Assembly: GCF_022808865.1 (NCBI RefSeq) | Contig: NZ_JAKZLB010000002.1 | Location: forward strand, 448,019-512,018 | DNA: 64,000 nucleotides | Direction: 5' to 3' | Source of the DNA: Geothrix oryzisoli | Lineage (GTDB): Bacteria > Acidobacteriota > Holophagae > Holophagales > Holophagaceae | In this document: one piece after another, positions 14,786 through 64,000 of the stretch | How positions within the stretch are numbered: the first letter of the stretch is position 1 | How the letters are laid out: each line of letters starts with the position of its first letter | Position numbers and translations under genes: made by a program | The notes under the pieces: generated by a model | What the model was told of the DNA's origin: nothing | What the model saw: only the letters and a program-made list of their open reading frames with translations | Databases searched by the model: none

Positions 14786-14801
14786 CGTGACCTGGATCAC
14801 A
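14786..14801. promoter_or_regulatory. CRP-type palindrome upstream of the CRP-family gene
   Basis: Reads CGTGA-CCTGGA-TCACA, fitting GTGA-N6-TCACA. It lies about 50 bases upstream of the regulator's start codon, suggesting autoregulation. The recognition helix of the encoded protein predicts this sequence type. Confidence 0.65.
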
Positions 14802-14849: not shown

Positions 14850-15524
14850 ATGCCTCAAGCAGTCCTCAATCTGAGAAGGATCGAGTTCCTGGCGGGGCTG
14901 CCCATGAACGCCGCCGAAGAACTGGCCAGCATCGCCGAGATGCGGCGGTTCCCCGATGGCGCCCGGGTCTATACGCAGGGAGACCACGTCCCCGGCGTCT
15001 ATGTGGTGGTGAAGGGTGGCCTCAAGGTCTTCCGCACGGACGGCCGGGGCCGGGTCCAGGTGCTCCAGTTCCTCAAGGTCGGGGACTGCGTGGGCGAGGT
15101 GGCCGTGTTCGATGGCGCCTCCATCGCCTCCAGTGCCGAGTCCCATGGCGAGACCGAGTGCTGGCTCATCCCCTCCGCGCCCCTGCGCCAGATCGTCCAC
15201 CGCCACCCCGAGGTGGCCGAGATGCTCATCCACCACTTCGCCGCCAAGGTGCGCCACCTGGTGACCCTGGTGGAGACCCTCAGCCTGCACAGCGTGCCCG
15301 AGCGCGTGGCCCAGCTGCTGCTGGAGGCCCACGAGTCCCACCCCATGCGGTCCCTGGTGGAGTTCCAGGAGACCCAGGAGGACCTGGCCCAGTGCATCGG
15401 CGCCAGCCGCGAGGCCTTCAGCCGAGCCCTGCGTCTGCTGACCGACCTCGGCCTCATCCAGAGCACCTTCCCCGTGGTGCGCATCCTGGATCTGGGGAAG
15501 CTGCAGCGGTACGCCAAGGGCTGA
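14850..15524 (+). CDS. CRP/FNR-superfamily transcriptional regulator (CRP-type recognition helix)
   Basis: 224 residues. An N-terminal cyclic-nucleotide-binding-type beta-barrel spans about residues 10-125, and a C-terminal winged helix about 150-220. The recognition helix reads GASREAFSRALRLL, which keeps the R-E-x3-R pattern that E. coli CRP uses to read TGTGA. The FNR pattern (E-x2-S-R) is absent. The N-terminus lacks an FNR-type cysteine cluster. The phosphate-contact Arg of the CRP cAMP pocket also seems absent (GASIASSAES where CRP has an ERSA-type segment), so the effector is probably not cAMP. The start at 14850 has GGAG upstream; the longer open frame does not. It lies beside moeA and the nar genes and is the obvious candidate to bind the GTGA-N6-TCACA sites listed in this window. 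Confidence 0.88.
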   Translation: MPQAVLNLRRIEFLAGLPMNAAEELASIAEMRRFPDGARVYTQGDHVPGVYVVVKGGLKVFRTDGRGRVQVLQFLKVGDCVGEVAVFDGASIASSAESHGETECWLIPSAPLRQIVHRHPEVAEMLIHHFAAKVRHLVTLVETLSLHSVPERVAQLLLEAHESHPMRSLVEFQETQEDLAQCIGASREAFSRALRLLTDLGLIQSTFPVVRILDLGKLQRYAKG

Positions 15525-49179: not shown

Positions 49180-51840
49180 ATGCAACACCGACCTCTGAAA
49201 CAGCTCTGCGGCCTCATCGCCACCGCAGCCGTCGCCCTGGTGCTGATCGGCTGTAACGGCAAGACGGGCCCCGCCGGTGCGAACGGCACCAACGGTACCA
49301 ACGGTACCAATGGCACCAACGGCACCAACGGTACCAACGCGGTCATCACTGTGAACGCTGCCCAGCTCACCCCCGACCAGTGGGGCCAGATGAGCCTGAA
49401 CGGCACCGTGACCAGCGTGACCATGGGCACCAAGCCCGTCGTCAACTTCACCGTCACCGACAGCAAGGGAACCCCCGTCAGCGGCCTTGGCTTCACCACC
49501 AAGACCTCGACCAACATCGTCCCCAGCTACCCCAACTTCGCCTTCAGCATCGCGAAGCTGGTGCCCGCCGGCACCGATGGCAGCCCCAGCAAGTGGGTGA
49601 ACTACATCGTCACCACGATGCCCAGCACCACCACCGCCGCGGCGCCCTCCAAGCCCAGCACCGACAACACGGGCACCCTGGTCGACAACGGCGACGGCTC
49701 CTACAAGTACACCTTCTACCGTGACATCACGGCGGCCCAGGCCTTCCTGGATGGCTACACCTACACGGGCAACAACCTCCGCGCCGACCTCGGCGACGTG
49801 AGCTACCAGCCCACCTTGACCCACCGCGTCAGCATCCAGATCGGCGGCAACGCCCGCGGCACCAGCACCAACACGCCCGACGGCTCCAACACCGGCATCA
49901 CCGGCGTGCCCATCCTGAACCCCGCCAACATCACCTACGATTTCGTCCCTGCCACCGGTGCCGCTCCGGCCGCCACGGCGCAGCGCAACATCGTGGACAT
50001 GACGTCCTGCAACACCTGCCACACCCGCCTGGTGGTCCACGGCGGCAACCGTGTCGATCCCCGCTACTGCGTGGTCTGCCACACCGACCAGCGCAAGTAC
50101 GGCAACCCCGAAGCCACCACCACGGCCACGGGCTACACCGGCAACACCTACAAGATCAACGGCCTGGGCGTCGCCGACTTCCCGGCCTTCATCCACCGCC
50201 TCCACGCGGGTGAGTTCCTCCAGAAGACCGGCTACCTCTACGCCGGGATCGCCTTCAACGAGACCACCTACCCGCAGGACCTGCGCAACTGCAGCAAGTG
50301 CCACACCGCTTCCATCGCCGCCACCCCCCAGGGTGATGCCTGGAAGACCAACCCCAGCCGCATGGCCTGTGGCGCCTGCCACGACGGCATCGACTGGGTG
50401 GCCGGCACCAACCACGCTGGCGGCCCCCAGACCAGCGACCTGAACTGCACCGGCTGCCACGGCGCCTCGCAGATGCAGGTCATCCACACCCCGATGCTCG
50501 CGCCCAACCCGGGCTACGTCGCCGGCAGCCACACCAACGGCTCCTACATCGCCGACTACAAGAGCATCCTGCCCGCCGGCGCCCACCAGATCACCTATGA
50601 TCTGAAGAGCGTCACCCTGACCGCGACCGGCCAGCCGGTCCTCACCTTCCGCTTCCTGCAGGACGGCACCGCGGTGGCCTTCAACGCCGCCCCCGCCGCC
50701 GCCGACGCCACCGCCGAGCTGATGCCCGGCTACATCGGCAGCCCCAACGCCTATGTCGCCTTCGGCGTACTCCAGGACGGCATTGCCGCTCCCGCCGACT
50801 GGAACGCCACCCTCAGCGCCACCATCCGGAACGTCTGGAACAAGACCGTCACGTCCGCGACCATGACCGGCCCCGACGCGAACGGCTACTACGCCCTGAC
50901 CTTCGCGGCCTCCGTCCCGGCAGGCGCCACCCAGATCACGGCTGGCATCGGCTACAACTACAGCTACGGCAATCCTCCGCTCACCCAGATCGACCTGCCC
51001 GCCTTCCCGTACTCCGGGGGCATCACCGGCACCGGCGGTCTGAGCGTGCCCGCGCCCAACGTGGCCAAGCTCGTCAGCGGCACCCTGCCCACCGGCTTCG
51101 CGGCCCAGACGGCCCGCCGCTCCATCGTCAGCAATCAGAAGTGCAACGACTGCCACGCCGTCCTTGGCGTGTTCACCGACAAGACCTACCACGCCGGTGA
51201 GCGCAACGACGCCCCGACCTGCACCTTCTGCCACAACGTCAACCGCGTCAACAGCGGCTGGGGCGTGAACATCAAGGATGCGATCCACTCCATCCACGCC
51301 GCCGACAAGCGGGTGAACAAGTTCTCGTGGGAAGTCTCCGCGGGCGACACCTACTGGAATGTCACCTACCCGGCCATCCTGAACAACTGCGAAGCCTGCC
51401 ACGTGCCCGGCTCGTACGACTTCAGCAACAGCACCAACGCGGCCGCCATTCCCAACCTGCTTTGGACCACCGTCGCCACCGGCACGACCCCGACCCCCGT
51501 CAATGCCATCGTGACGGGCAACGAGACCGTTCCCGGCGTCTACTGGTCGCCCTTCACGGCCGCCTACGGTTCCGCTTACGCCTTCGGCAGCGGCTTCGGC
51601 TACAACGGCACGACCCAGGCGATCACCCAGGCCGCTTCCACCACCCTGGTGAACAGCCCGATCACCTCTGCCTGCTCCAACTGCCACGACACCCCGGCTG
51701 CCATCGCCCACTTCAAGGGCAACGGCGGTGCGTTCTACGAGGCTCGCGCCACCGCGCTCCTCAAGGTCGAGCAGTGCATGGTCTGCCACGGCTCCGGCCG
51801 CACGGCTGACATCAAGGCCGTCCACATGAACTTCAAGTAA
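49180..51840 (+). CDS. OmcA/MtrC-family decaheme outer-membrane cytochrome, paralogue 1
   Basis: 886 residues. A lipoprotein signal (ALVLIGC) is followed by GKT-GPA-GAN and six GTN triplets, a collagen-like Gly-x-y segment. Ten CXXCH sites follow in two clusters of five: CNTCH, CVVCH, CSKCH, CGACH, CTGCH, then CNDCH, CTFCH, CEACH, CSNCH and CMVCH. Beta-rich domains before each cluster fit the OmcA/MtrC fold. Predicted cell-surface reductase of metals or other extracellular acceptors. ATG has AAGGAG upstream. Its N-terminal half is closest to paralogue 3 and its C-terminal half to paralogue 2. Confidence 0.92.
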   Translation: MQHRPLKQLCGLIATAAVALVLIGCNGKTGPAGANGTNGTNGTNGTNGTNGTNAVITVNAAQLTPDQWGQMSLNGTVTSVTMGTKPVVNFTVTDSKGTPVSGLGFTTKTSTNIVPSYPNFAFSIAKLVPAGTDGSPSKWVNYIVTTMPSTTTAAAPSKPSTDNTGTLVDNGDGSYKYTFYRDITAAQAFLDGYTYTGNNLRADLGDVSYQPTLTHRVSIQIGGNARGTSTNTPDGSNTGITGVPILNPANITYDFVPATGAAPAATAQRNIVDMTSCNTCHTRLVVHGGNRVDPRYCVVCHTDQRKYGNPEATTTATGYTGNTYKINGLGVADFPAFIHRLHAGEFLQKTGYLYAGIAFNETTYPQDLRNCSKCHTASIAATPQGDAWKTNPSRMACGACHDGIDWVAGTNHAGGPQTSDLNCTGCHGASQMQVIHTPMLAPNPGYVAGSHTNGSYIADYKSILPAGAHQITYDLKSVTLTATGQPVLTFRFLQDGTAVAFNAAPAAADATAELMPGYIGSPNAYVAFGVLQDGIAAPADWNATLSATIRNVWNKTVTSATMTGPDANGYYALTFAASVPAGATQITAGIGYNYSYGNPPLTQIDLPAFPYSGGITGTGGLSVPAPNVAKLVSGTLPTGFAAQTARRSIVSNQKCNDCHAVLGVFTDKTYHAGERNDAPTCTFCHNVNRVNSGWGVNIKDAIHSIHAADKRVNKFSWEVSAGDTYWNVTYPAILNNCEACHVPGSYDFSNSTNAAAIPNLLWTTVATGTTPTPVNAIVTGNETVPGVYWSPFTAAYGSAYAFGSGFGYNGTTQAITQAASTTLVNSPITSACSNCHDTPAAIAHFKGNGGAFYEARATALLKVEQCMVCHGSGRTADIKAVHMNFK
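49282..49335 (+). repeat. Six 9-bp units encoding Asn-Gly-Thr (collagen-like stalk, paralogue 1)
   Basis: Units of AAYGGYACC in frame, directly after the lipid-modified Cys region. The unit number is the same in all three decaheme genes although the synonymous bases differ. Confidence 0.9.
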
Positions 51841-52017: not shown

Positions 52018-52416
52018 ATGAAGAACCCCCTGATGAACCTTGCACTGGCCGCTTCCACCCTCCTGGCCCCGGCGTTCCCGGCCCGGGCCCAGGAAGAGGC
52101 CGCGGCGCCCCGGAAGGCCGAGTCCCAGGCCGCCAAGGCCGCCAAGGCCAAGAGCGGGGCCGCCAAGGTCAAAGAGCGGGCCAAGGCGAAGGCCGCGGCC
52201 GACGCCAAGGCCGTCGATATCAACAGCGCCACCAAGGAGCAGTTGAAGAAGCTGCCGGGCATCACGGACGCCTACGCCGACAAGATCATCGCCGGCCGTC
52301 CCTACCTCTCCAAGGCCTTCCTGGTGACGAAGAACATCCTGCCCAACGACCTCTTCCAGACCCTGCGGAAGCAGATCGTGGCCCGGCAGCCCGCGCCGAA
52401 ACCCCAGGCCCGGTAG
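52018..52416 (+). CDS. Exported helix-hairpin-helix (ComEA-like) protein
   Basis: 132 residues with a Sec signal (ALAASTLLAPAFPARAQ), then a Lys/Ala-rich low-complexity linker (about 30-65), then a helix-hairpin-helix domain: VDINSATKEQLKKLPGITDAYADKII in two stretches. This matches the ComEA family, which binds DNA at the cell surface or periplasm. It lies alone between two decaheme genes, with terminators on both sides, so a role in electron transfer is not implied. DNA uptake or nucleoid-external DNA binding are possibilities. Confidence 0.8.
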   Translation: MKNPLMNLALAASTLLAPAFPARAQEEAAAPRKAESQAAKAAKAKSGAAKVKERAKAKAAADAKAVDINSATKEQLKKLPGITDAYADKIIAGRPYLSKAFLVTKNILPNDLFQTLRKQIVARQPAPKPQAR

Positions 52417-52435
52417 AAGACCACCGCACCCTCGC

Positions 52436-52465
52436 AGAAGCCCCCGGGAACGGGGGCTTCTGTTG
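52436..52465 (+). terminator. Rho-independent terminator after the helix-hairpin-helix gene
   Basis: An 11-bp perfect stem AGAAGCCCCCG / CGGGGGCTTCT with loop GGAA, followed by a T-containing tail. Confidence 0.75.
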
Positions 52466-52505
52466 TACGGACGCCAAGGTCCTTTGTGTTGAAGGCTTTC
52501 CGGAA

Positions 52506-52570
52506 TGTCACGGGTTCCGTGACACAGGTCACAAGGGCGGTTGACTCGTTAGATTACCGGAAGATCATCA
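52506..52570 (+). promoter_or_regulatory. Repeated promoter module, copy A (decaheme paralogue 2)
   Basis: CRP-type box CGTGA-CACAGG-TCACA at 52518-52533, then seven bases, then TTGACT at 52541 and ATTACCGG, ATCATCATTG downstream. A second dyad, TGTCACGG-GTT-CCGTGACA (52506-52524), overlaps the box here only. Leads into decaheme paralogue 2 with a leader of about 95 bases. Confidence 0.75.
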
Positions 52571-52664
52571 TTGGCGAAATCATGCGGAGGCCGTGCTCCT
52601 TGAAGGTCGATGCTTCCTTATCGCCTGAAGGCCGGCAGTCCAAGTCCCCAAAGGAGGATGAACC

Positions 52665-55367
52665 ATGCACCATCGACCTTTGAAACAGCTCTGCGGCCTC
52701 GTGGCAGGCGCCGCCGTCATCCTGATGCTGGTCGCCTGCGACGGCAAGACGGGCGCGGCCGGAGCCAACGGGACGAACGGCACCAATGGCACGAACGGCA
52801 CCAACGGCACGAACGGCACCAATGCCGTCATCACCGTGAATGCCGCCCAGCTGACCAGCGACCAGTGGGCCCAGCTGACCCTCAAGGGCGCGGTCAACAG
52901 CGTCACCATGGGCGGCGCGCCCGTCGTGACCTTCACCCTCACTGACGGCGTGGGCACGCCGGTGAGCGGCCTCGCCGCCAAGTCGGCGAGCGGGAACTAC
53001 GCCAACTTCGCCTTCGCGATCTCCAAGCTGGTGCCAGGGACCAACGGCAGCCCCAGCCGCTGGGTCTGCTACAACGTGGTGACCACCCCGGCCGCGGGCC
53101 AGGCGGCCGTGCCCGGCTTCACCGAGCCCGAGAACAACGGCACCCTGAAGGACAACCTCGACGGCACCTACACCTACACCTTCGCCCTGGACCTCACCAA
53201 GGCCAAGGGCTACGTGGACGGGGCCACCTACGACGCCAGCCACCTCAAGTCCGATCTCGACGACCTGACCTATGATCCGACCCTGACCCACCGCTTGATG
53301 GTGGCCGTGGGCGGGAACCAGCCCGGCACCACCACCCAGCTGCTCACCTCCGCGAACCTCTACTACGACTTCATTCCCACCACCGGGAAGCCCGTCGTGG
53401 CCACCGATACGGAGCGGGTGATCGTGGATACCGCCTCCTGCAACACCTGCCACACCAAGCTGTCCATGCACGCCGACTTCTTCCCGGCCATCAACGACAC
53501 CCACCTGTGCGTGGTGTGCCACACGGATCAGCTGAAGTACGCCAGCGGCGATTCCCTGCCTGCCTCCGGCAACGTCCTGCTGGCCAACGGCGTCTACGGC
53601 AGCACCCAGAAGCTCCAGGGCATGGCCCTGGCCAACTTCCCCAACATGGTCCACCACATCCACACGGGTGAGCTCCTCTACTACCAGGGCTACAACCAGT
53701 TCCTGCCCTACAACGAAGTCACCTACCCGCAGGATCTGCGGAACTGCACGAAGTGCCACACCCAGTCGGCCAGCGCCCCCCAGGGCGACAACTGGAAGGC
53801 CGTGCCGAGCCGCCTCGCCTGCGGCGGATGCCACGATTCCATCGTTTGGATCAGCGGCGCGAACCACGCGGGCGGCGCCCAGATCAGCGACAAGGACTGC
53901 ACCAGCTGCCACGGGGCCTCGCAGATGCAGGTCATCCATACGCCCGTGGTGGCGCCCAACGCCAGCAACGGCTGGCTGGTCTCCGGCGGCAACAACAACA
54001 CCAACGCCTCCTACGTGGCCGGCTACACCGGCATCCTGCCCAACGGCGCCCACCTCGTGACCTGGGATCTCAAGTCCGTCAGCCTGAACGCCAGCAGCCA
54101 GCCGGTCTTCGTCTTCCGGTTCCTGGAAGACGGCCTCCGGAAGGACTTCAAGACGTTCGTGGACACCACCACCACGCCGGAATTCTGGGACAACTACGTG
54201 GGCGGACCGAGCGTCTACCTGGCCTTCTCCGTGCCCCAGGACGGCATCGCGGCCCCGGCCGACTGGAACGCCACGGTCAGCACCTACGTCAAAAACCTCT
54301 GGCGGGGAGACGGCAAGGACCAGTACGGGAACACCCTCGCGGCCACCCAGGCCGGAACGCTCAGTGGACCCGACACCAATGGCTACTACACCCTGACCAT
54401 GACGGGCGTGGCCATCCCCGCCACCGCCACCAATCTCACGGGCGGCATCGGCTACACCTACGGCCTGAGCTCCACCCAGCCCCTGACCCAGATCAACGTG
54501 GCGGGCTACGCCTACTCGCCCCTGCAGGTGACCTTCAACACGACCACCAGCAAGTGGGTCCAGGTGTTGGGGACCGGCCAGGGCGGCGTGAGCGTCCCGG
54601 CGCCCAACGTCATCAAGGTGATGAGCGGTAGCGCGGCCCGCCGCGCCATTGTCAGCAACCAGAAGTGCAACGACTGCCACGCCACGCTGGGCATCTTCAC
54701 CGAGAAGGTGTACCACGCGGGCCAGCGCAACGACGCGCCGACCTGCACCTTCTGCCACAACGTGAACCGCGTGAACGCCGGCTGGGGCGTGAACATCAAG
54801 GACGCGGTGCATGCCATCCACGCCGCCGGCAAGCGGGCCAACAAGTACTCGTGGGAAGTCTCCGCGGGCGACTACTACTGGGAGGTCACCTACCCGGCCA
54901 TCCTGAACAACTGCGAAGCTTGCCATGTGCCCGGCTCCTACGATTTCAGGAACAGCGCCAGCCAGGCGGCCCTGCCCAACCTGCTGTGGACGACCGTCGC
55001 CACCGGCACCACGCCTGCGACGATCAACTACGTGAAGGGTGACGGCACGGATGTGCTTCCGGGCACCTACTACTCGCCGTTCGTGACGGCCGGCACCGCC
55101 TACGGCTCCGGTTTCGCGACCAACTTCGCGACCGGCAGCGCCACGCCGTACGCCGACGCGGCCTCGACCACCCTGGTGAGCTCGCCGATCACCGCGGCCT
55201 GCTCCAACTGTCACGACTCCGCCGCGGGGATCGCCCACTTCCAGGGCAACGGCGGCGCGTTCTACGAGCCCCGCGCCACGGCGCTTCTCAAGGTCGAACA
55301 GTGCCTGGTCTGCCATGGCCCCGGCCGTACGGCGGACATCAAGACCGTCCACATGACGTTCAAGTAA
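52665..55367 (+). CDS. OmcA/MtrC-family decaheme outer-membrane cytochrome, paralogue 2
   Basis: 900 residues. Lipoprotein signal VILMLVAC, then GKT-GAA-GAN and six GTN triplets. Ten heme sites: CNTCH, CVVCH, CTKCH, CGGCH, CTSCH, CNDCH, CTFCH, CEACH, CSNCH and CLVCH. The second heme cluster region (from QKCNDCHA to NNCEACHVPGSYDF) is nearly identical to paralogue 1; the first beta domain is more different. Start has AAAGGAGG. It has its own promoter module with a CRP-type box, so it can be regulated apart from paralogue 1. Predicted cell-surface electron-transfer protein. Confidence 0.92.
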   Translation: MHHRPLKQLCGLVAGAAVILMLVACDGKTGAAGANGTNGTNGTNGTNGTNGTNAVITVNAAQLTSDQWAQLTLKGAVNSVTMGGAPVVTFTLTDGVGTPVSGLAAKSASGNYANFAFAISKLVPGTNGSPSRWVCYNVVTTPAAGQAAVPGFTEPENNGTLKDNLDGTYTYTFALDLTKAKGYVDGATYDASHLKSDLDDLTYDPTLTHRLMVAVGGNQPGTTTQLLTSANLYYDFIPTTGKPVVATDTERVIVDTASCNTCHTKLSMHADFFPAINDTHLCVVCHTDQLKYASGDSLPASGNVLLANGVYGSTQKLQGMALANFPNMVHHIHTGELLYYQGYNQFLPYNEVTYPQDLRNCTKCHTQSASAPQGDNWKAVPSRLACGGCHDSIVWISGANHAGGAQISDKDCTSCHGASQMQVIHTPVVAPNASNGWLVSGGNNNTNASYVAGYTGILPNGAHLVTWDLKSVSLNASSQPVFVFRFLEDGLRKDFKTFVDTTTTPEFWDNYVGGPSVYLAFSVPQDGIAAPADWNATVSTYVKNLWRGDGKDQYGNTLAATQAGTLSGPDTNGYYTLTMTGVAIPATATNLTGGIGYTYGLSSTQPLTQINVAGYAYSPLQVTFNTTTSKWVQVLGTGQGGVSVPAPNVIKVMSGSAARRAIVSNQKCNDCHATLGIFTEKVYHAGQRNDAPTCTFCHNVNRVNAGWGVNIKDAVHAIHAAGKRANKYSWEVSAGDYYWEVTYPAILNNCEACHVPGSYDFRNSASQAALPNLLWTTVATGTTPATINYVKGDGTDVLPGTYYSPFVTAGTAYGSGFATNFATGSATPYADAASTTLVSSPITAACSNCHDSAAGIAHFQGNGGAFYEPRATALLKVEQCLVCHGPGRTADIKTVHMTFK
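52767..52820 (+). repeat. Six 9-bp units encoding Asn-Gly-Thr (collagen-like stalk, paralogue 2)
   Basis: Same unit number and position as in paralogues 1 and 3, with a different mix of GGG, GGC, ACG and ACC codons. Confidence 0.9.
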
Positions 55368-55373
55368 GGTTTC

Positions 55374-55403
55374 CGCCAGGGCGCGGCTCGCTGCGCCCTG
55401 GCG
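55374..55403 (+). terminator. First hairpin after decaheme paralogue 2
   Basis: CGCCAGGGCGCGG-CTCG-CTGCGCCCTGGCG, a near copy of the hairpin at 51848 in the same place after the stop. Confidence 0.6.
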
Positions 55404-55420
55404 GCCTTTCACGCCCCCAG

Positions 55421-55462
55421 ACGAGGATCCGGATGCCTTCCAGCGCCGGGTCCTCGTTCGGT
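55421..55462 (+). terminator. Second hairpin after decaheme paralogue 2
   Basis: ACGAGGATCCGG pairs with CCGGGTCCTCGT with one mismatch, loop ATGCCTTCCAGCG identical to that at 51909. The gap from here to 55597 shows no recognisable feature. Confidence 0.65.
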
Positions 55463-55597
55463 TCTGCCGCGCGGATTGCCCGGCGGAACGACCGTGCAGT
55501 TTCCAGGATGAAGGAGACTTTTTGAGGCGATTTCGAGATGGGAAATGATTCGCAACATCAAAAAGACATGGTGGGTTTTTACAATTTATGACCAGTA

Positions 55598-55660
55598 GGT
55601 GACAAACGTCACAAGGGTGGTTGACTCATTAAATTACCGATAGATCATCATTGACGAATC
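55598..55660 (+). promoter_or_regulatory. Repeated promoter module, copy B (decaheme paralogue 3)
   Basis: CRP-type box GGTGA-CAAACG-TCACA at 55598-55613, seven bases, TTGACT at 55621, then TAAATTACCG and GATCATCATTG. Nearly identical to copies A and C. The leader to the cytochrome start is about 160 bases and includes a GGAGGTGCGTGTGCTT segment resembling the start of the Rrf2 gene at 58645. Confidence 0.75.
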
Positions 55661-55814
55661 CCCGATGGAACTCTCCTCCCGGGAGGTGCGTGTGCTTTCA
55701 ATGTCACGGGTCACCGCTCGTTCTGGATCCCGCGCGCAGCCACGTTTCCCCCGGACCCCAGGCGAGTCCCCTACCCCCACCCCCAAGCTTGACTCTCCAG
55801 AAGGAGAACGAAGC

Positions 55815-58394
55815 ATGCAACACCGACCCTTGAAACAACTCTGCGGCGCCCTCGCCGCAGCCGCCGTGCTGCTGGCCCTGGTGGCCTGCGACGGGAAGAC
55901 CGGCCCCGCGGGCGCGAACGGGACCAACGGCACGAACGGAACCAACGGCACCAACGGGACCAACGGCACCAACGCCACCCCCAAGGTCGACCTGGCGAAG
56001 CTGTCGACGGACCAGTGGGCCGCCCTCCAGCCCACGGGCACGATCACTTCAGTCACCATGGGCGCCGCCCCGGTCGTGAACTTCAAGCTCACCGACGCCG
56101 CCGGAACCCCCATCGTGGGCCTCGGCGCCTTCACGTCGAAGAGCTCCACCGCCGTGGCCGCCAGCTATCCCAACCTGGCCTTCGCCATCGCGAAGCTGGT
56201 GCCCGAGGACGCCACCACCAAGGCTCCCAGCAAGTGGGTCAGCTACATCGTGACGAGCACCCCGACCACCACCGCCGCCGCGGCCCCCACCCGGCCCACG
56301 ACCGACAACACCGGCACCCTGGTGGACAACGGCGACGGCACCTACAAGTACACCTTCTACCGTGACATCACCAAGGTCCAGGCGGCCCTGGACGCGGCGA
56401 CCTACACGGCCCCCAGCGTCAAGACCGACCTGGGTGACGCGACCTACGCGCCCGCGCTCGTGCATCGCATCGCCCTGCAGTTCTCGGGCAATGCGCGCGG
56501 CACCGGCAGCAACACGGCCGATGGCACGACGCTCGTCCCGGGCGTGGCCATGGCGAACCCCATCAACGTGATCTACGACTTCGTGCCCGCCACCGGCGCC
56601 CCCGTGGCCGCCGGCACGGACATCCGCGACGTCGTCTCCATCAACCGCTGCAACGAGTGCCACGACAAGCTGGCCTTCCACGGCGGCGGCCGCGTCGAGA
56701 CCCGCTACTGCGTGGTCTGCCACACGGACCAGCGCAAGTTCGGCCGCGCCGAGGCCACGACCACAGCCACCGGCTTCTCCGGTAGCACCTACAAGGTCAA
56801 CGGCCTGGCCGCTGGCGACTTCCCGACCATGGTGCACCAGATCCACCAGGGCAAGGAGCTGACGAAGACCGGCTACAACTACGCGAACGTGCTCTACAAC
56901 AACATCGGCTACTCGATCCTCGATGGCGGCCAGAAGATGTGCCTGAAGTGCCACTCGAATGTCCCGCAGTCGACCAACTGGAACACCAAGCCCACCCGCC
57001 TCGCCTGCGGCTCCTGCCACGACGCGGTGGACTTCGCCACGGGCGTGAACCACATGCCGGGCAACAATGTCCCCCAGACGGACGACAAGGCCTGCACCAT
57101 CTGCCATGACTCCACGGCCATCACGACCTACCACATGGCCAACAACGTGACGCCCAACAACCCGGCGATCCCCGCCGGCCTCAAGAACGTCACCTACGAG
57201 ATCAAGTCGGCTGACGCCACCTCCACCGCCGTGACCGTCGTCTTCAAGATCAAGGTCGACGGCACCGCCGCCACCTTCAAGGCCCCCGCGGCCAGCATGG
57301 CGGATCCCCTGGACGGCTTCACGGGCGGACCCAGCTTCCTGCTCGCATACGCCCAGCCCCAGGACGGCGTGGCCGCCCCCGCCGACTACAACAACCTCGG
57401 CAGCGGCTCGTCCAATTTCCAGCCGATCAGCGTCTCCATCGCCAACCTGCTGGATACCGGCAAGACCACCAGCGTCGGCACCCTGAGCGGCCCGGACGCC
57501 AACGGCTACTACACCGCCAACATCGTCGGTGCGACCAAGATCTTCCCCGCCGGCGCCAAGCTGCGCTCGGTGTCCCTGCAGGGCTACTTCACCCAGATCA
57601 TCAGCACCGGTAATGTCGCCCGCCACGCCATCGCGGTCATCAAGACCGTGACCGGCGATGCCGCCCGCCGCACCGTCATCGATTCCGCCAAGTGCGCCAA
57701 GTGCCACGAGTGGTTCGAAGGCCACGGCGGCAACCGCGTCTATGAAGTCCAGGTCTGCGTCCAGTGCCACGTGCCGGGCCTGACCACCAGCGGCCGCGGC
57801 ATCTCGGACACCGCCATCCAGGCTTATGCCTTCACGGCTTCCGACCAGGCCATCCTGACCGCCTGGCAGTTCGACAAGACCCTGCCGAACGCCGCCCTGG
57901 CGCTTCCCCAGGTGACGAACAACTTCAAGGACATGATCCACGGCCTCCACGCCGGGAAGGATCGCACCACGTCCATCAAGATCGCCCGCGACCGGACGCC
58001 TTCCGCGATCAACCTGATCGACGGCGCCAACATCGGCTTCCCGGGCATCCTGAACCACTGCCAGAGCTGCCATACCCCCACCGGCTACAGCGGTGTGCCC
58101 GCCAACACCCTGGCCTCCCGCCAGGAAGCGGACAATGGCGTGTTCCTCAACGGCACCAACCGGACCCCGGCGGACGCCAAGGCCGCGCTCGCGACCCTCA
58201 ATGCCAGTGACCTGTTGACCACGCCGTTCACGGCCGCCTGCGTCAGCTGCCACGACAGCGCGATCGCCAAGGCCCACATGAACCAGCAGGGCGGGCAGGT
58301 CCTGACGCCCCGCAGCGCGCTCAACGTCGCCGCGGAATCCTGCGGCACCTGCCACGGCGCGGGCACCGCCTTCGACCCCGTCAAGGTGCACTAG
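55815..58394 (+). CDS. OmcA/MtrC-family decaheme outer-membrane cytochrome, paralogue 3
   Basis: 859 residues from the ATG with AAGGAG upstream; the open frame continues 50 codons further upstream, but that part overlaps the promoter leader and lacks a signal peptide. Lipoprotein signal VLLALVAC, then GKT-GPA-GAN and six GTN triplets. Ten heme sites: CNECH, CVVCH, CLKCH, CGSCH, CTICH, CAKCH, CVQCH, CQSCH, CVSCH and CGTCH. The N-terminal half is close to paralogue 1; the second heme region (AKCHEWFEGHGGNRVYEVQV) is quite different and suggests other surface partners. Followed by a strong terminator. Confidence 0.92.
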   Translation: MQHRPLKQLCGALAAAAVLLALVACDGKTGPAGANGTNGTNGTNGTNGTNGTNATPKVDLAKLSTDQWAALQPTGTITSVTMGAAPVVNFKLTDAAGTPIVGLGAFTSKSSTAVAASYPNLAFAIAKLVPEDATTKAPSKWVSYIVTSTPTTTAAAAPTRPTTDNTGTLVDNGDGTYKYTFYRDITKVQAALDAATYTAPSVKTDLGDATYAPALVHRIALQFSGNARGTGSNTADGTTLVPGVAMANPINVIYDFVPATGAPVAAGTDIRDVVSINRCNECHDKLAFHGGGRVETRYCVVCHTDQRKFGRAEATTTATGFSGSTYKVNGLAAGDFPTMVHQIHQGKELTKTGYNYANVLYNNIGYSILDGGQKMCLKCHSNVPQSTNWNTKPTRLACGSCHDAVDFATGVNHMPGNNVPQTDDKACTICHDSTAITTYHMANNVTPNNPAIPAGLKNVTYEIKSADATSTAVTVVFKIKVDGTAATFKAPAASMADPLDGFTGGPSFLLAYAQPQDGVAAPADYNNLGSGSSNFQPISVSIANLLDTGKTTSVGTLSGPDANGYYTANIVGATKIFPAGAKLRSVSLQGYFTQIISTGNVARHAIAVIKTVTGDAARRTVIDSAKCAKCHEWFEGHGGNRVYEVQVCVQCHVPGLTTSGRGISDTAIQAYAFTASDQAILTAWQFDKTLPNAALALPQVTNNFKDMIHGLHAGKDRTTSIKIARDRTPSAINLIDGANIGFPGILNHCQSCHTPTGYSGVPANTLASRQEADNGVFLNGTNRTPADAKAALATLNASDLLTTPFTAACVSCHDSAIAKAHMNQQGGQVLTPRSALNVAAESCGTCHGAGTAFDPVKVH
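55917..55970 (+). repeat. Six 9-bp units encoding Asn-Gly-Thr (collagen-like stalk, paralogue 3)
   Basis: Six in-frame units, same number as the other two decaheme genes, with GGA, GGC and GGG codons mixed. Confidence 0.9.
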
Positions 58395-58448
58395 CAAGCC
58401 ACAACAGCCTGGAAGGGGCGGGGCCTCCCCGTCCCTTCCACCAACCTC

Positions 58449-58484
58449 ACGACCCGGGTGCCTGACCGCACCCGGGTCGTTTTC
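58449..58484 (+). terminator. Rho-independent terminator after decaheme paralogue 3
   Basis: A 13-bp perfect stem ACGACCCGGGTGC / GCACCCGGGTCGT with a six-base loop, followed by TTTTC. An earlier GC-rich hairpin (about 58414-58441) precedes it. Confidence 0.85.
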
Positions 58485-58549
58485 ATCGGGAGCCTGCTGC
58501 GGCGGTGACCGGGGATGGTTTTGTGTTTTTTTACAATCGACATGCAGAT

Positions 58550-58605
58550 GGTGACGCAGATCACAAGGGTGGTTGACTCGTTAGATTACCGGATGATCCT
58601 CATTG
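58550..58605 (+). promoter_or_regulatory. Repeated promoter module, copy C (third Rrf2 gene)
   Basis: CRP-type box GGTGA-CGCAGA-TCACA at 58550-58565, seven bases, TTGACT at 58573, then TAGATTACCGG and GATCCTCATTG. Drives an Rrf2-family gene, whereas copies A and B drive decaheme cytochromes. Confidence 0.75.
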
Positions 58606-58644
58606 AAGAGGCTCCGCAAAAACCCCGTTCTCATGGAGGTGCCC

Positions 58645-59091
58645 GTGCTTCCCCTTTCACAGACGACCGGTTATGCGCTGCGCGCCATGCGCTGCCTCCA
58701 GGAGCCCGGCGGGCAGCCGGTCCTGGTGGAGTCCGTGGCGGACTACACGGGAATCCCCCGCTCCTACCTCTCCAAGCTCGTCCACAAGCTGGCCAAGAAG
58801 GGGCTGGTCACGGCCCGGAGGGGACACCATGGCGGCGTCGTCCTGGCCAAGCCGGCGACGGAGATCACCCTGGAGGACCTGTCGGAGGCCATCGACGGGG
58901 TGTCCTGGCGGAAGCGCTGCCTGGTGGGGCTGGCGGGCTGCTCCGAAGAGACGCCCTGCGTCCTCCACGAATACTGGAAGGACACCCTGGCTGAGATCCT
59001 GGTCCGGCTGCGTTCGGTCACCCTGGCCGACATGGCCCGGCACCATGACCCCGGGGTGGAGCGGTTCCGCGCGGACCACGGCCTGGCCTGA
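58645..59091 (+). CDS. Rrf2-family iron-sulfur transcriptional regulator (cytochrome-linked)
   Basis: 148 residues from a GTG that has GGAGG five bases upstream; an ATG at 58633 is an alternative but overlaps that ribosome site. Rrf2 winged helix: LPLSQTTGYALRAMRCL, YTGIPRSYLSKLVHKLAKKG and ARRGHHGGVVLAKP. Cluster cysteines RCLVGLAGCSEETPCVL, spaced C-x6-C-x5-C. It shares its promoter module with two decaheme cytochrome genes, so it is made under the same condition and may feed back on them. The start LPLSQ is shared with the convergent Rrf2 gene. Confidence 0.87.
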   Translation: MLPLSQTTGYALRAMRCLQEPGGQPVLVESVADYTGIPRSYLSKLVHKLAKKGLVTARRGHHGGVVLAKPATEITLEDLSEAIDGVSWRKRCLVGLAGCSEETPCVLHEYWKDTLAEILVRLRSVTLADMARHHDPGVERFRADHGLA

Positions 59092-59155: not shown

Positions 59156-59701
59156 CTAGGCCTTCTTGGCGGGGGCCTTTGCGGCGGGCCTGCGGGTGGG
59201 GACCTTCGCGCCGGCGGCCGGCTTGGCGGCCTTCTTGGGCCGGGGCTTGAGCTTCTTTTCGGGCAGGGCATCGGCCAGGCGCCAGGTGCGGCTCTGCTGC
59301 TCGAAGGTGCGGATCTCCTCCAGGGAGATGTCCTTCAGGCAGCGGTGGATGTGGTCGCGCTCGGACTTCCAGAAGGTGTGGGCGGGGCAGGCCCGCTCGT
59401 CGCTGCACTCCTTGAAGCCCAGCAGGCACTGGTTCCGCCACTCGGCGCCGTCGACGGCCTCGGCGATGAGGTCGAGGGTGATCTCCTTGGCGGCCAGGGC
59501 CAGCACCACGCCGCCCTTGTTGCCGCGCTTGGCCATCACGAGGCCCACCTTGGCGAGCTTGTGGATCATCTTGGAGAGGTAGGGGCGGGGGAAGCCCGTG
59601 CGGGCGGCCACATCGACCACCAGCGTCGGCTTTCCGCCCGGATCCTCGAGGCAGCTCATGGCCAGGACTGCATAACCGGAGGATTGGGACAGTGGGAGCA
59701 T
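59156..59701 (-). CDS. Rrf2-family iron-sulfur transcriptional regulator with basic tail
   Basis: 181 residues from the ATG at 59701 (AGGTGA upstream; a GTG two codons earlier is an alternative). Rrf2 winged helix: LPLSQSSGYAVLAMSCL, TGFPRPYLSKMIHKLAKVG and AKRGNKGGVVLALA. Cluster cysteines QCLLGFKECSDERACPA, spaced C-x6-C-x5-C. About 35 extra C-terminal residues are Lys/Ala/Pro-rich (KPRPKKAAKPAAGAK), histone-tail-like, and absent from the other three Rrf2 proteins here. A perfect CRP-type box lies 76-91 bases upstream. Confidence 0.86.
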   Translation of the reverse strand: MLPLSQSSGYAVLAMSCLEDPGGKPTLVVDVAARTGFPRPYLSKMIHKLAKVGLVMAKRGNKGGVVLALAAKEITLDLIAEAVDGAEWRNQCLLGFKECSDERACPAHTFWKSERDHIHRCLKDISLEEIRTFEQQSRTWRLADALPEKKLKPRPKKAAKPAAGAKVPTRRPAAKAPAKKA

Positions 59702-59776
59702 GGTCACCTACGCAGGAATGGAAGATGATTCGATCCTGAATGATAGACGATGTTCAGGTCAATCACATCCAAAGAG

Positions 59777-59792
59777 TGTGATTTCTTTCACA
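59777..59792. promoter_or_regulatory. Perfect TGTGA-N6-TCACA palindrome upstream of the fourth Rrf2 gene
   Basis: TGTGA-TTTCTT-TCACA, the best match to the CRP consensus in the window. Lies in the gap between the Rrf2 gene and the DHODH-like gene, both on the minus strand. Confidence 0.7.
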
Positions 59793-59841: not shown

Positions 59842-60834
59842 TCAGGCCTTCCAGCCGTTGAGGATGCGCATGTAGTTGGCGCGGGTGAAGGCCTGGGCAT
59901 TCGGGCACTTCTGGAGGCTCATGCTGCCCCGGGCCTGGGCCAGGGACTCGTACTCATGCTCTTCCAGCCACTCGGCCAGGGTCGCGCGGGACTGGGCCAG
60001 GCGCTCGGGGCCGTGGATGAGGAGGGCGGAGACCATCTGGACCGCGTCGGCACCTGCCATGACGGCCTTGAGGGCACCGATGCCGTCATGGACGCCGCCG
60101 GTGGCCGCGAGGCTGCCCTTCACCTGGCTCCGGAGCACGGCCAGCCAGCGCAGGCGGAGCAGGAGCTCCTCGGGGCCGGACAGCTGGAGGCTGGGCTCGG
60201 CCTGCAGCTCTTCCACATTGATGTCGGGCTGGAAGAACCGGTTGAAGAGCACCAGTCCGTCGGCGCCCGCGGCCTCCAGCTCCACGGCGAAGTGCGCCAG
60301 GGAGGAGAAGAACGGGGAGAGCTTCACCGCGACGGGGATCTTCACTTCGGCTTTGACGGCCCGCACGATGTCCAGGGTGCGCTTCTCGACCGCCGCGGCG
60401 GTTTCCGCGGGATCGGTGGCCAGGTAGTAGACGTTCAGTTCCAGCGCGTCGGCCCCGGCTTCCTGCATGAGCTTGCCGTAGTGCAGCCAGCCCGCCGGCG
60501 TGGTGCCGTTCAGGGAGGCGATGACCGGGACGGCCACGGCCTGCTTGATGCGCTGGAGCTGCTCCAGGTACTTCTCGGGGCCGAGACGGAATTCGTCGGG
60601 CTGCGGGAAGAAGGAGATGGCCTCGGCGCTGGAATGCGCGCTGAGTTCCATGTCCATGATGGTGCCCTGCTCTTCGCGGGTGATCTGCTCTTCGAAGAGG
60701 GAGTGCATCACGATGGCCGAGGCGCCGGCATCTTCGAGGCGCTTGACCATGCCCATGTCGTCGACCATGGGCGAGGCGCCCGCCATCAACGGATGGGCCA
60801 GCTTGAGGCCGAGGTAGGTGGTGGAGAGGTTCAT
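59842..60834 (-). CDS. Dihydroorotate dehydrogenase-like flavoprotein
   Basis: 330-residue FMN-type TIM barrel of the DHODH/DHPDH superfamily. Visible blocks: TTYLGLKLAHPLMAGASP at the start, VPVIASLNGTTPAGW (about residue 102), ADALELNVYY, IPVAVKLSPFFSSL and the FMN-phosphate loop AATGGVHDGIGALKAVMAGADAVQMVSAL in two stretches. It lies 11 bases after the PFOR gene. The pairing of this protein with PFOR occurs in many anaerobes. It is not likely to be the true pyrimidine enzyme; its substrate is unknown. Confidence 0.85.
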   Translation of the reverse strand: MNLSTTYLGLKLAHPLMAGASPMVDDMGMVKRLEDAGASAIVMHSLFEEQITREEQGTIMDMELSAHSSAEAISFFPQPDEFRLGPEKYLEQLQRIKQAVAVPVIASLNGTTPAGWLHYGKLMQEAGADALELNVYYLATDPAETAAAVEKRTLDIVRAVKAEVKIPVAVKLSPFFSSLAHFAVELEAAGADGLVLFNRFFQPDINVEELQAEPSLQLSGPEELLLRLRWLAVLRSQVKGSLAATGGVHDGIGALKAVMAGADAVQMVSALLIHGPERLAQSRATLAEWLEEHEYESLAQARGSMSLQKCPNAQAFTRANYMRILNGWKA

Positions 60835-60845
60835 GGGAACTCCCT

Positions 60846-63800
60846 TCAGCTTTCCTTGGCCGTGACGGACAGCTTCGCGAGCTGTTCGTAGACGGAGTAG
60901 CGGTTGGTGGTGTCGAGCTGGGCCTGAGCCATGAGCTTCTGGAAGTGCTCGGGGTTCTGCTGCTCGATCATGCGGTAGCGGGTCTCATTGCGGACGTACT
61001 GGAGCATGGGGACCTTGGGGGCGCCGGAATCCATCTGCAGCGGCGCCTCGCCCTTCCCCAGGCGGCGGGGGTCGAAGCGGAACAGCGGCCAGTGCCCGGA
61101 GTCCACCGCCAGCTTCTGCTGATCGGCGCCGTGGGCCAGATCGTAGCCGTGGGCGATGCAGTGGCTGTAGGCCAGGATGAGGCTGGGGCCGTGGTAGGAC
61201 TCGGCTTCCTGGAAGGCCTTCACCGTCTGCGCGTCGCGGAAGCCGAAGGCGACCTTGGCCACGTAGATGCCGCCGTAGGACATGGCGATCATGCCCAGGT
61301 CCTTCTTGGGCATGGCCTTGCCGGCCATGGCGAACTTGGCGCCGGCGCCCATGGGCGTGGACTTGGAGGCCTGGCCGCCGGTGTTGGAGTAGACCTCGGT
61401 GTCGAGCACCAGGACGTTCACGTTGCGGCCGGAGGCGAGGACGTGGTCGAGGCCGCCGTAGCCGATGTCATAGGCCCAGCCGTCGCCGCCCACGATCCAG
61501 ACGCTCTTGTTGACCAGGTAGTCGGCCAGGTCGTGGAGCATCTTGGCCTCGGGCTCCTTGGCACCCGCCAGCTTCTGCTTGAGGCTCTCCACCCGTTCGC
61601 GCTGGGCCTTGATGCCGGCTTCCGTCGACTGGTCGGCGGTGGCGATGCCGGTGATGAGCTCGTCGCCGAGCTTGGCAGCCAGGCGGTGCATCAGTTCCAG
61701 GGCGAACTCCTGGTGCTTGTCCACCGAGAGGCGCATGCCCAGGCCGAATTCCGCGTTGTCCTCGAAGAGGCTGTTGGCCCAGGCGGGGCCGCGGCCGTCC
61801 TTGTTGACGGTGTAGGGCGTGGTGGGCAGGTTGCCGCCGTAGATGCTGGAGCAGCCCGTGGCGTTGGCGATCAGGGTGCGGTCGCCGAAGAGCTGGGTGA
61901 GCAGCTTGAGATAGGGCGTCTCGCCGCAGCCGGAACAGGCGCCGGAGAACTCGAAGAGCGGCTCGAGGAACTGCGAGCCCTTCACGTCCAGCTTGACCGT
62001 GGTGCGGTCGGCCTCGGGCAGGTCGAGGAAGAACTTGAAGTTGGCGGCCTCGGCTTCGCGGAGCGGGGCCTGGGCCACCATGTCGATGGCCTTGTGCTTC
62101 GGATTGCTCTTGTCCTTCGCGGGGCAGATCTCCACGCACAGCGTGCAGCCCGTGCAGTCCTCAGGAGCGACCTGGATGGTGTACTTCTGGCCCTTGTATT
62201 CGGGGCCCTTGTAGTCCACGCCCTTGAAGGTGGCGGGGGCGCCGGCCAGCTCGGAGGGATCGTAGACCTTGGCGCGGATGGCGGCGTGGGGGCAGGCCAT
62301 CGCGCACTTGTTGCACTGGATGCAGATGGAGGCGTCCCACTCGGGGATCTCCAGCGCGATGTTGCGCTTCTCCCACTTGGTGGTGCCCACGGGCCAGGTG
62401 CCGTCCACGGGGAAGGCGCTCACGGGCAGCAGGTCGCCCTTGCCCTCCATCATCACGGCGGTGACGCGCTTGACGAAATCCGGAGCCTCGTCGGCCACCA
62501 TCGGCGGACGCTTGCGGGTGGCGGTGACGGTGGTGGGGACGGTCACCTTGTGGAGATGGGCCAGGGTCTCGTCCACAGCCACGTAGTTCTTCTGGACGAT
62601 GGCGTCGCCCTTCTTGCCGTAGGTCTTCTTGATGGCCTTCTTGATCTGCTCGATGGCCTCCTCGCGGGGCAGCACCCCGGAGATGGCGAAGAAGCAGGTC
62701 TGCATGATGGTGTTGATGCGCACACCCATGCCGGTGTTCTTGGCGACCTCGTAGGCGTCGATCACGTAGAGCTTGAGGTGCTTCTCGACGATGGCCGCCT
62801 GGACTTCGACGGGCAGGGTCTCCCAGACCGTTTCGGCGTTGTGGGGCGTGTTCAGCAGGAACGTGGCGCCCTCGACGGCGGTCTCCAGCATCTCGTATTT
62901 GTCGAGGAAGCTGGTCTGGTGGCAGGCGATGAAGTTGGCCTTGGTCACCAGGTAGGCGCTCTTGATGGGGCGGGGCCCGAAGCGCAGGTGGCTGATGGTG
63001 ATGGCGCCGGACTTCTTGGAGTCGTAGACAAAGTAGCCCTGGCCGTAGTTGGGCGTCTCCTCGGCGATGATCTTGATGGAGTTCTTGTTGGCGCCCACCG
63101 TGCCATCGGCGCCCAGGCCGTAGAAGAGGGCGCGGGTCACGTCGCTGGGCTCGACGTCGAAGCTGGCGTCGTAGGTCAGCGAGGAGTGGCTGACATCGTC
63201 CACGATGCCGACGGTGAAGTGGTTCTTCGGAGTGTCCTTGGCCAGGTTCTCGAAGATGCCCTTGACCATGGCGGGCGTGAATTCCTTGGAGGAGAGGCCG
63301 TAGCGGCCGCCCACGACGATGGGATCGAGCTTGGTGTGGCCCTCCTCGCGGCCCTCGCGCAGGGCGGCGATCACGTCCAGGTGCATGGGGTCGGCAGGGG
63401 CGCCGGGCTCCTTGCAGCGGTCCATGACGGCGAGCTTCTTCACCGTGGCGGGCAGGGCGCGGACGAACTCTTCGATGGCGAAGGGCCTGAAGAGGCGGAC
63501 CTTCAGGACGCCGACCTTCTCGCCCTGCTTCATGGCCCACTCGACGTACTCGTGGCTGACATCGCAGCCGGAGCCCATGATGACGATCACGCGCTCGGCC
63601 TCGGGGTGGCCGTAGTAGTCGTAGAGGCGGTAGTTGCGGCCGGTCAGCGCACCGAAGCGGTCCATCTCCTGCTGCACGATGGCCGGGAAGGCCTTGTAGT
63701 AGGGGGTGCAGGCTTCGCGGGCCTGGAAGAAGGTGTCGGGGTTCTGCGCGGTGCCGCGGATCATCGGGGCGTCCGGCGTCAGGGCCATCTTGCGGAAGTT

Positions 63801-64000
63801 GGCCACCAGCTCGTCGGGCACCATGTGGCGGAGGTCCTCGTCGTTGAGGATCTCGATCTTGGCGACCTCGTGGCTGGTGCGGAAGCCGTCGAAGAAGTGC
63901 AGGATGGGCACCCGGCTGCGCAGGGTGGCCGAGTGGCAGATGGCGGCGAAGTCGTGGGCCTGCTGCACGCTCTCGGAGCTGAGCATGGCGAAGCCGGTCT
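60846..64000 (-). CDS. nifJ: Pyruvate:ferredoxin (flavodoxin) oxidoreductase, partial (N-terminus outside window)
   Basis: Single-chain PFOR; about 1050 residues are inside the window and the frame is open to its edge (TGFAMLSSESVQQAHDFA), so roughly the first 130 residues are missing. Oxidises pyruvate with CoA to acetyl-CoA and CO2, giving reduced ferredoxin. Two 4Fe-4S clusters of a ferredoxin domain: CIQCNKCAMACPHAAI and CTGCTLCVEICPA. The TPP domain has CSGCGETPYLKLLTQLFG, NATGCSSIYGGN and GGDGWAYDIGYGGLDH. The gene leads the PFOR/DHODH-like pair and ties pyruvate oxidation to low-potential electron carriers. Confidence 0.95.
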   Translation of the reverse strand, partial: TGFAMLSSESVQQAHDFAAICHSATLRSRVPILHFFDGFRTSHEVAKIEILNDEDLRHMVPDELVANFRKMALTPDAPMIRGTAQNPDTFFQAREACTPYYKAFPAIVQQEMDRFGALTGRNYRLYDYYGHPEAERVIVIMGSGCDVSHEYVEWAMKQGEKVGVLKVRLFRPFAIEEFVRALPATVKKLAVMDRCKEPGAPADPMHLDVIAALREGREEGHTKLDPIVVGGRYGLSSKEFTPAMVKGIFENLAKDTPKNHFTVGIVDDVSHSSLTYDASFDVEPSDVTRALFYGLGADGTVGANKNSIKIIAEETPNYGQGYFVYDSKKSGAITISHLRFGPRPIKSAYLVTKANFIACHQTSFLDKYEMLETAVEGATFLLNTPHNAETVWETLPVEVQAAIVEKHLKLYVIDAYEVAKNTGMGVRINTIMQTCFFAISGVLPREEAIEQIKKAIKKTYGKKGDAIVQKNYVAVDETLAHLHKVTVPTTVTATRKRPPMVADEAPDFVKRVTAVMMEGKGDLLPVSAFPVDGTWPVGTTKWEKRNIALEIPEWDASICIQCNKCAMACPHAAIRAKVYDPSELAGAPATFKGVDYKGPEYKGQKYTIQVAPEDCTGCTLCVEICPAKDKSNPKHKAIDMVAQAPLREAEAANFKFFLDLPEADRTTVKLDVKGSQFLEPLFEFSGACSGCGETPYLKLLTQLFGDRTLIANATGCSSIYGGNLPTTPYTVNKDGRGPAWANSLFEDNAEFGLGMRLSVDKHQEFALELMHRLAAKLGDELITGIATADQSTEAGIKAQRERVESLKQKLAGAKEPEAKMLHDLADYLVNKSVWIVGGDGWAYDIGYGGLDHVLASGRNVNVLVLDTEVYSNTGGQASKSTPMGAGAKFAMAGKAMPKKDLGMIAMSYGGIYVAKVAFGFRDAQTVKAFQEAESYHGPSLILAYSHCIAHGYDLAHGADQQKLAVDSGHWPLFRFDPRRLGKGEAPLQMDSGAPKVPMLQYVRNETRYRMIEQQNPEHFQKLMAQAQLDTTNRYSVYEQLAKLSVTAKES

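Follow-up and report, generated by a model that had tools for sequence, protein, structure and literature searches.

Two genes for decaheme outer-membrane cytochromes and a gene for an Rrf2-family regulator in Geothrix stand behind copies of one promoter module, which consists of a CRP-type box followed by a rigid core and is very probably a shared regulated promoter. The overall model favored here, with a rough probability of 0.55 on the evidence of sequence, is that this CRP-box promoter belongs to a redox regulon, receives feedback from the Rrf2 product, and reached the two cytochrome genes (B and C below) by copying during local duplication. The stretch of DNA analysed, 64 kb in length, is referred to as the window.

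A pattern search for GTGA-N6-TCACA-N7-TTGACT finds three matches in the window, all on the plus strand, starting at 52519, 55599, and 58551. The initial annotation had recognised these modules, and all three copies are real, although its coordinates (52518, 55598, and 58550) were one base early. Its claim of a CRP-type box within a joint promoter module also stands. Shuffled versions of the window hold 0.02 matches on average, and none holds three. ATTACCG and GATC(A/A/C)TCATTG (GATCNTCATTG), likewise described at the outset, recur at the same offsets in all three modules. The elements are as follows.

52519..52533, plus strand: CRP-type box GTGACACAGGTCACA of module 1, exact match
52541..52573, plus strand: rigid core of module 1, with TTGACT (-35), ATTACCG at 52553-52559, and GATCATCATTG at 52563-52573
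52563-52568, plus strand: predicted -10 of module 1, GATCAT (promoter scan, TTGACT-16-GATCAT)
55599..55613, plus strand: CRP-type box GTGACAAACGTCACA of module 2, exact match
55621..55653, plus strand: rigid core of module 2, with TTGACT, ATTACCG, and GATCATCATTG (pattern and promoter scan)
58551..58565, plus strand: CRP-type box GTGACGCAGATCACA of module 3, the genus-wide ancestral copy, exact match
58573..58605, plus strand: rigid core of module 3, with TTGACT, ATTACCG, and GATCCTCATTG

Compared with one another, the copies have an identity of about 0.6-1.0 per 10-bp bin within the module (about 56-58 bp) and mostly 0.1-0.5 outside it, with a sharp fall on both sides. When the whole genome (3.23 Mb, 98% complete) was scanned for the box with TTGACT seven bases behind it, a check suggested in the initial annotation, the only exact copies turned out to be the three in the window locus; four additional sites at two mismatches to this pattern have sequences unrelated to the module. 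A riboswitch or structured RNA leader was rejected as an explanation, the Rfam matches over the window being one tRNA only.

The genes of the locus, together with a further CRP-type box, are listed below.

49180..51840, plus strand: decaheme cytochrome A, OmcA/MtrC family (TIGR03507), without a module
52018..52416, plus strand: helix-hairpin-helix protein (HhH), PF12836
52665..55367, plus strand: decaheme outer-membrane cytochrome B, OmcA/MtrC family, lipoprotein-like (TIGR03507, 425 bits; 10 CXXCH)
55815..58394, plus strand: decaheme outer-membrane cytochrome C, OmcA/MtrC family (TIGR03507, 449 bits)
58645..59091, plus strand: Rrf2-family regulator Rrf2-1 (PF02082, 106 bits against a cut-off of 30)
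59156..59707, minus strand: second Rrf2-family regulator, Rrf2-2, convergent (PF02082, TIGR00738; CX6CX5C)
59777..59791, minus strand: separate CRP-type box GTGAAAGAAATCACA upstream of Rrf2-2, in another promoter layout

The profile matches at 52665, 55815, and 58645 confirm that two decahemes and an Rrf2 gene lie behind the modules; the decahemes score above the TIGR03507 cut-off and have 10 CXXCH motifs. Decaheme A lies 3' of two pentaheme-like cytochrome genes. The N-termini of the decahemes starting at 49180, 52665, and 55815 contain a collagen-like (NGT)n repeat linker behind a lipobox-like cysteine, which Pfam Collagen matches weakly. Rrf2-1 has a GTG start with GGAGG 5 nt upstream. It combines the PF02082 winged helix with three cysteines in the effector loop (CLVGLAGCSEETPC), as would be expected of an Rrf2 [Fe-S] regulator, and its closest solved structures are IscR, NsrR, and RsrR. 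The CX6CX5C motif is present in both Rrf2 proteins; Rrf2-2 scores far under the IscR, NsrR, and RirA equivalog cut-offs. The Rrf2-2 promoter (TTGACCTGAAGATCGTCTATYAT) is different from the module and conserved in the genus, and its CRP-type box is missing in some species. A pyruvate:ferredoxin oxidoreductase-like gene (60846-63986, minus strand) adjoins the locus, and behind it on that strand comes a dihydroorotate-dehydrogenase-like gene (59842-60834).

Across species, the spacing TTGAC-N10-ACC-N5-ATCNTC is rigid. Between the box and TTGAC, most cases have 7 bases and several relatives have 6, so the exact seven bases emphasised originally, which hold in all three window copies, are not essential. 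The pattern TCAC-N5..20-TTGAC-N18-ATCNTC, searched for in 47 genomes, gave 97 places. ACC, which is outside the search pattern, occurs at the same position in 86 of them and is absent from 11; those of the 11 whose sequences were inspected seem to lie in coding regions, one of them an ExbD-like frame. Nearly every genome of the genus has one further such site outside the Rrf2/decaheme locus, which the initial annotation had missed; in the genome of the window it is the following:

contig C3:614462-614501: fourth site with the same grammar, unlinked; box GTGACCATAGTCAC

The operon of the fourth site encodes a monoheme cytochrome c, a DUF3373 protein, and a molybdopterin oxidoreductase. In one genome (G013) a further Rrf2 gene is the first of this monoheme-cytochrome operon, directly under the module, and two others (G023 and G031) have a similar Rrf2 gene behind the same promoter type. 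Since an Rrf2 gene lies under this second class of promoter in some Geothrix, cytochromes and Rrf2 genes have the promoter type in common at two independent loci. The promoter being shared by Rrf2, the decahemes, and a second respiratory operon, these genes are probably switched together, and the joint control of cytochromes and a redox regulator proposed in the initial annotation is well supported.

Variants of the layout were also seen. At the monoheme-cytochrome operon, the class-2 promoters (L260, L269, L273, and others) have a conserved AT-rich stretch, TTACTTNGTGGTTATTTAATTA, that immediately precedes the box. Two places (L133, G018:C7:20864; L134, G033:C1:4153500) carry ATAGATTACCGTTACATCATCATT, nearly the module core with no TTGAC, and a degenerate CRP-like box just 4 bp upstream of it.

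The module boxes contain a GTGA-N6-TCAC dyad, and a CRP-family protein with a matching recognition helix is encoded in the window, with a box of its own.

14850..15524, plus strand: CRP-family regulator, probable binder of the boxes (PF00027 and PF13545)
14787..14801, plus strand: box GTGACCTGGATCACA upstream of the CRP-family gene, about 50 nt 5' of its start

This protein is the only CRP-type regulator with HTH_Crp_2 (PF13545) found in the genome. Other HTH_Crp_2-like matches were discarded as candidates, being of Lrp and ArsR type, and none of the other cNMP-domain matches in the genome (one aspartase-like fusion and three more) has an HTH_Crp_2 match. A 631-residue open frame (L075, G000:C2:162561) has a cyclic-nucleotide-binding domain fused to an apparent aspartate ammonia-lyase. 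In each of the 30 crp-family orthologs examined, an exact box lies at the same upstream place. As the sole HTH_Crp_2 regulator, and one with a box at its own gene, the 14850-15524 protein is quite likely to bind the module boxes.

The closest solved structures to this protein are GlxR and M. tuberculosis CRP, whose recognition-helix residues SRE...K/R it shares (its helix reads SREAFSR, with S-R-E...R kept), and the half-sites of the boxes match the GlxR/CRP site, TGTGA-N6-TCACA. Unlike GlxR, where the arginine of PRTSSA contacts the cAMP phosphate, the Geothrix protein reads SIASSA in the alignment. It lacks this mark of a true cAMP-CRP, so its signal is probably not cAMP. An FNR-type N-terminal cysteine cluster for [4Fe-4S] was not found in the 224-aa sequence, which has a few scattered cysteines. 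The genome contains 19 distinct GTGA-N6-TCACA sites, and the reversed control gives none. Downstream of some boxes are cydA (cytochrome bd oxidase subunit I), RIC (ytfE/scdA; iron-sulfur repair), and a diheme cytochrome, and also a 4HPPD-like dioxygenase and a pyrophosphatase. This looks like a redox regulon, although several of the boxes in the genome lie within coding sequence.

The module can be read as a complete regulated promoter, with the CRP-type box, the -35 TTGACT, a 16-bp spacer in which ACC(G) is conserved, and GATCNT as a weak -10, a few nucleotides past which transcription is predicted to start. A consensus promoter scan of 52380-58700 detects only two promoters, TTGACT-16-GATCAT at 52541 and 55621; module 3, having GATCCT at -10, falls under the threshold. 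GATCNT is a poor -10, and a second -10-like stretch, TARATT, overlaps the conserved spacer and appears as TATAAT in some outgroup species. With TARATT as the -10, transcription could start about 13 nt further upstream. We retain it as an alternative only and prefer GATCNT, because in other outgroups TARATT is lost where TTGA and ATCNTC persist.

Counted from TTGACT-16-GATCNT, the box centre is predicted at about -49.5 to -50.5, which corresponds neither to class II (-41.5) nor to class I (-61.5). The statement that the module "drives" its genes therefore went too far, since a box near -49.5 is not at a classical activating position. In the proposed mechanism, the 14850-15524 protein would bind the box as part of the redox regulon and most likely activate the weak promoter, activation being given somewhat better than even odds. 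ACC and ATCNTC are conserved beyond the needs of a -35 and a -10, which makes them the best candidates for an operator of the Rrf2 product itself. Rrf2 made from the third module would most likely feed back on the same promoters via ACC-N5-ATCNTC, over the spacer and the -10; its action on the core is put forward tentatively, at slightly under an even chance. No palindrome for Rrf2 was recognised in ACC-N5-ATCNTC, and the IscR type-1 palindrome was rejected as a poor fit to TTGACTCGTTAGATTACCG. It is more speculative to suppose a composite promoter, in which the CRP-family regulator at about -50 and Rrf2 on the spacer and -10 would jointly gate the cytochromes and the Rrf2 gene, with new cytochrome duplicates joining the circuit as tandem duplication hands them the promoter of the regulator ("promoter capture").

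The same box position bears on the sign of control. The CRP-family protein might repress from the module box, with Rrf2 or another factor as the activator; the predicted box centre lies away from the activating positions, the Rrf2-2 box is at a similar predicted distance (about -51.5), and FNR acts as a repressor at E. coli ndh, its site lying near -50.5. We consider this unlikely, though not remote: a weak -10 is usual for activated promoters. In addition, CRP acts as an activator of omcA and mtrC in Shewanella (PMC4417206).

It is improbable that the core TTGAC-N10-ACC-N5-ATCNTC is the promoter of an alternative sigma factor, instead of a sigma-70 promoter plus operator, and that the box forms a separate layer. 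Such a factor would fit a core that is rigid and common to unlinked genes, a box that shifts by 1 bp against it (6 or 7; 16 in one degenerate copy), and the poor -10; however, TTGACT makes a good -35 for sigma-70, and 16 bp is a standard spacing.

The preferred model, that of a CRP-box promoter copied by local duplication, draws on the distribution of the module. In the family Holophagaceae, the module is confined to the window's own genus. Of the 47 genus genomes, 30 match its profile strongly, with the match at the orthologous Rrf2 gene; more distant genomes of the genus have weak, degenerate versions, and only in about 10 close relatives does the module precede decaheme genes. In some outgroup species the Rrf2 gene is kept and the box or ACC is lost. 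When 84,980 species were scanned for the core TTGAC...TA.ATTACCG...ATCNTC, the records returned were of Geothrix/Holophagaceae type, G. fermentans DSM 14018 among them; the one other match, in Halanaerobiaceae (L239), was set aside, as this AT-rich sequence without a box looks like chance.

Single-decaheme genomes have the gene order cyt-cyt-decaheme A-HhH-[module]-rrf2, with rrf2-2 convergent and the HhH gene directly preceding the Rrf2 module, and the window has A-HhH-[m]B-[m]C-[m]rrf2. In the decaheme tree, the B genes, with their module, are young sisters of the A genes; one B copy (genome G007) has a degenerate module with 16 bp between the box and TTGAC. The C genes are older, and the module is absent at C in relatives G035, G011, G034, G032, and G019. 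Judging from this gene order and these ages, the module is originally the Rrf2 promoter, conserved genus-wide, which was captured by B at its duplication and put before C by at least one further event; we infer tandem duplication as the route. Such copying puts decahemes B and C behind the promoter of the regulator itself. Where C-type decahemes lack the module (L152 and L164, in G035 and G011), they share a box with one mismatch, GTGGNAAAGGTCACAACTTTGTCGC, some 300-450 bp upstream.

In the subclade, B and its module are of recent origin, and the copies might accordingly be alike by recent descent only, those at the cytochromes having no function. This is very improbable: every copy shows far stronger conservation across species than its flanks do (the conserved block extends from +1 to about +58 among orthologs), and the unlinked class-2 promoters have the same grammar. 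The spread of a regulatory cassette, as first suggested, by a mobile or recombinational element is the least credible reading despite the identical spacing ahead of non-homologous genes, since all full copies lie in one locus and one orientation, always at promoters and not dispersed, no element ends were seen, the flanks diverge, copy number tracks decaheme duplication, and an ancestral Rrf2 promoter copied only inside one locus of one subclade can be explained by gene duplication. Local duplication in that locus thus appears to account for the decaheme copies, and a mobile cassette is not needed.

Little is known about the control of extracellular electron transfer in Acidobacteriota such as Geothrix, a metal-respiring bacterium in which the decaheme cytochromes behind the module are outer-membrane proteins. 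An open-access literature search found no paper naming both Geothrix and Rrf2, nor any on this promoter system. What emerges is a concrete predicted regulon, with about four promoters at two loci, together with a named regulator, whose autoregulatory box is conserved, and a named candidate for the feedback. The locus further illustrates how duplicated cytochrome genes can gain a regulator's own promoter.

In Shewanella oneidensis, CRP activates both omcA and mtrC, which have in common a conserved upstream element with a CRP site, and the CRP-cAMP sites centre at -61.5/-60.5 (PMC4417206). Geothrix similarly has paralogous OmcA/MtrC-family decahemes with a shared CRP-site element and a weak -10. 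Unlike in Shewanella, its box has a predicted centre at about -49.5, conservation takes in the spacer and the -10, and the module also precedes an Rrf2 gene, whereas no Rrf2 gene is involved in Shewanella. In Desulfovibrio vulgaris, regulator genes lie downstream of the hmc operon. Rrf2 was first described there, downstream of this cytochrome operon (Keon et al. 1997, cited in PMC9338935), and deleting the two downstream genes of hmc-rrf1-rrf2 reportedly altered hmc expression. In Geothrix, too, an Rrf2 gene comes immediately after multiheme cytochrome genes, but its regulator and cytochromes each have their own copy of one promoter. As in IscR, NsrR, and RsrR, the Geothrix Rrf2 has PF02082 and three cysteines in the cluster-binding loop, although with a different cysteine spacing, CX6CX5C. 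In general, the Geothrix system seems to work like those of Shewanella and D. vulgaris, while its layout, rigid core, and duplication history are its own.
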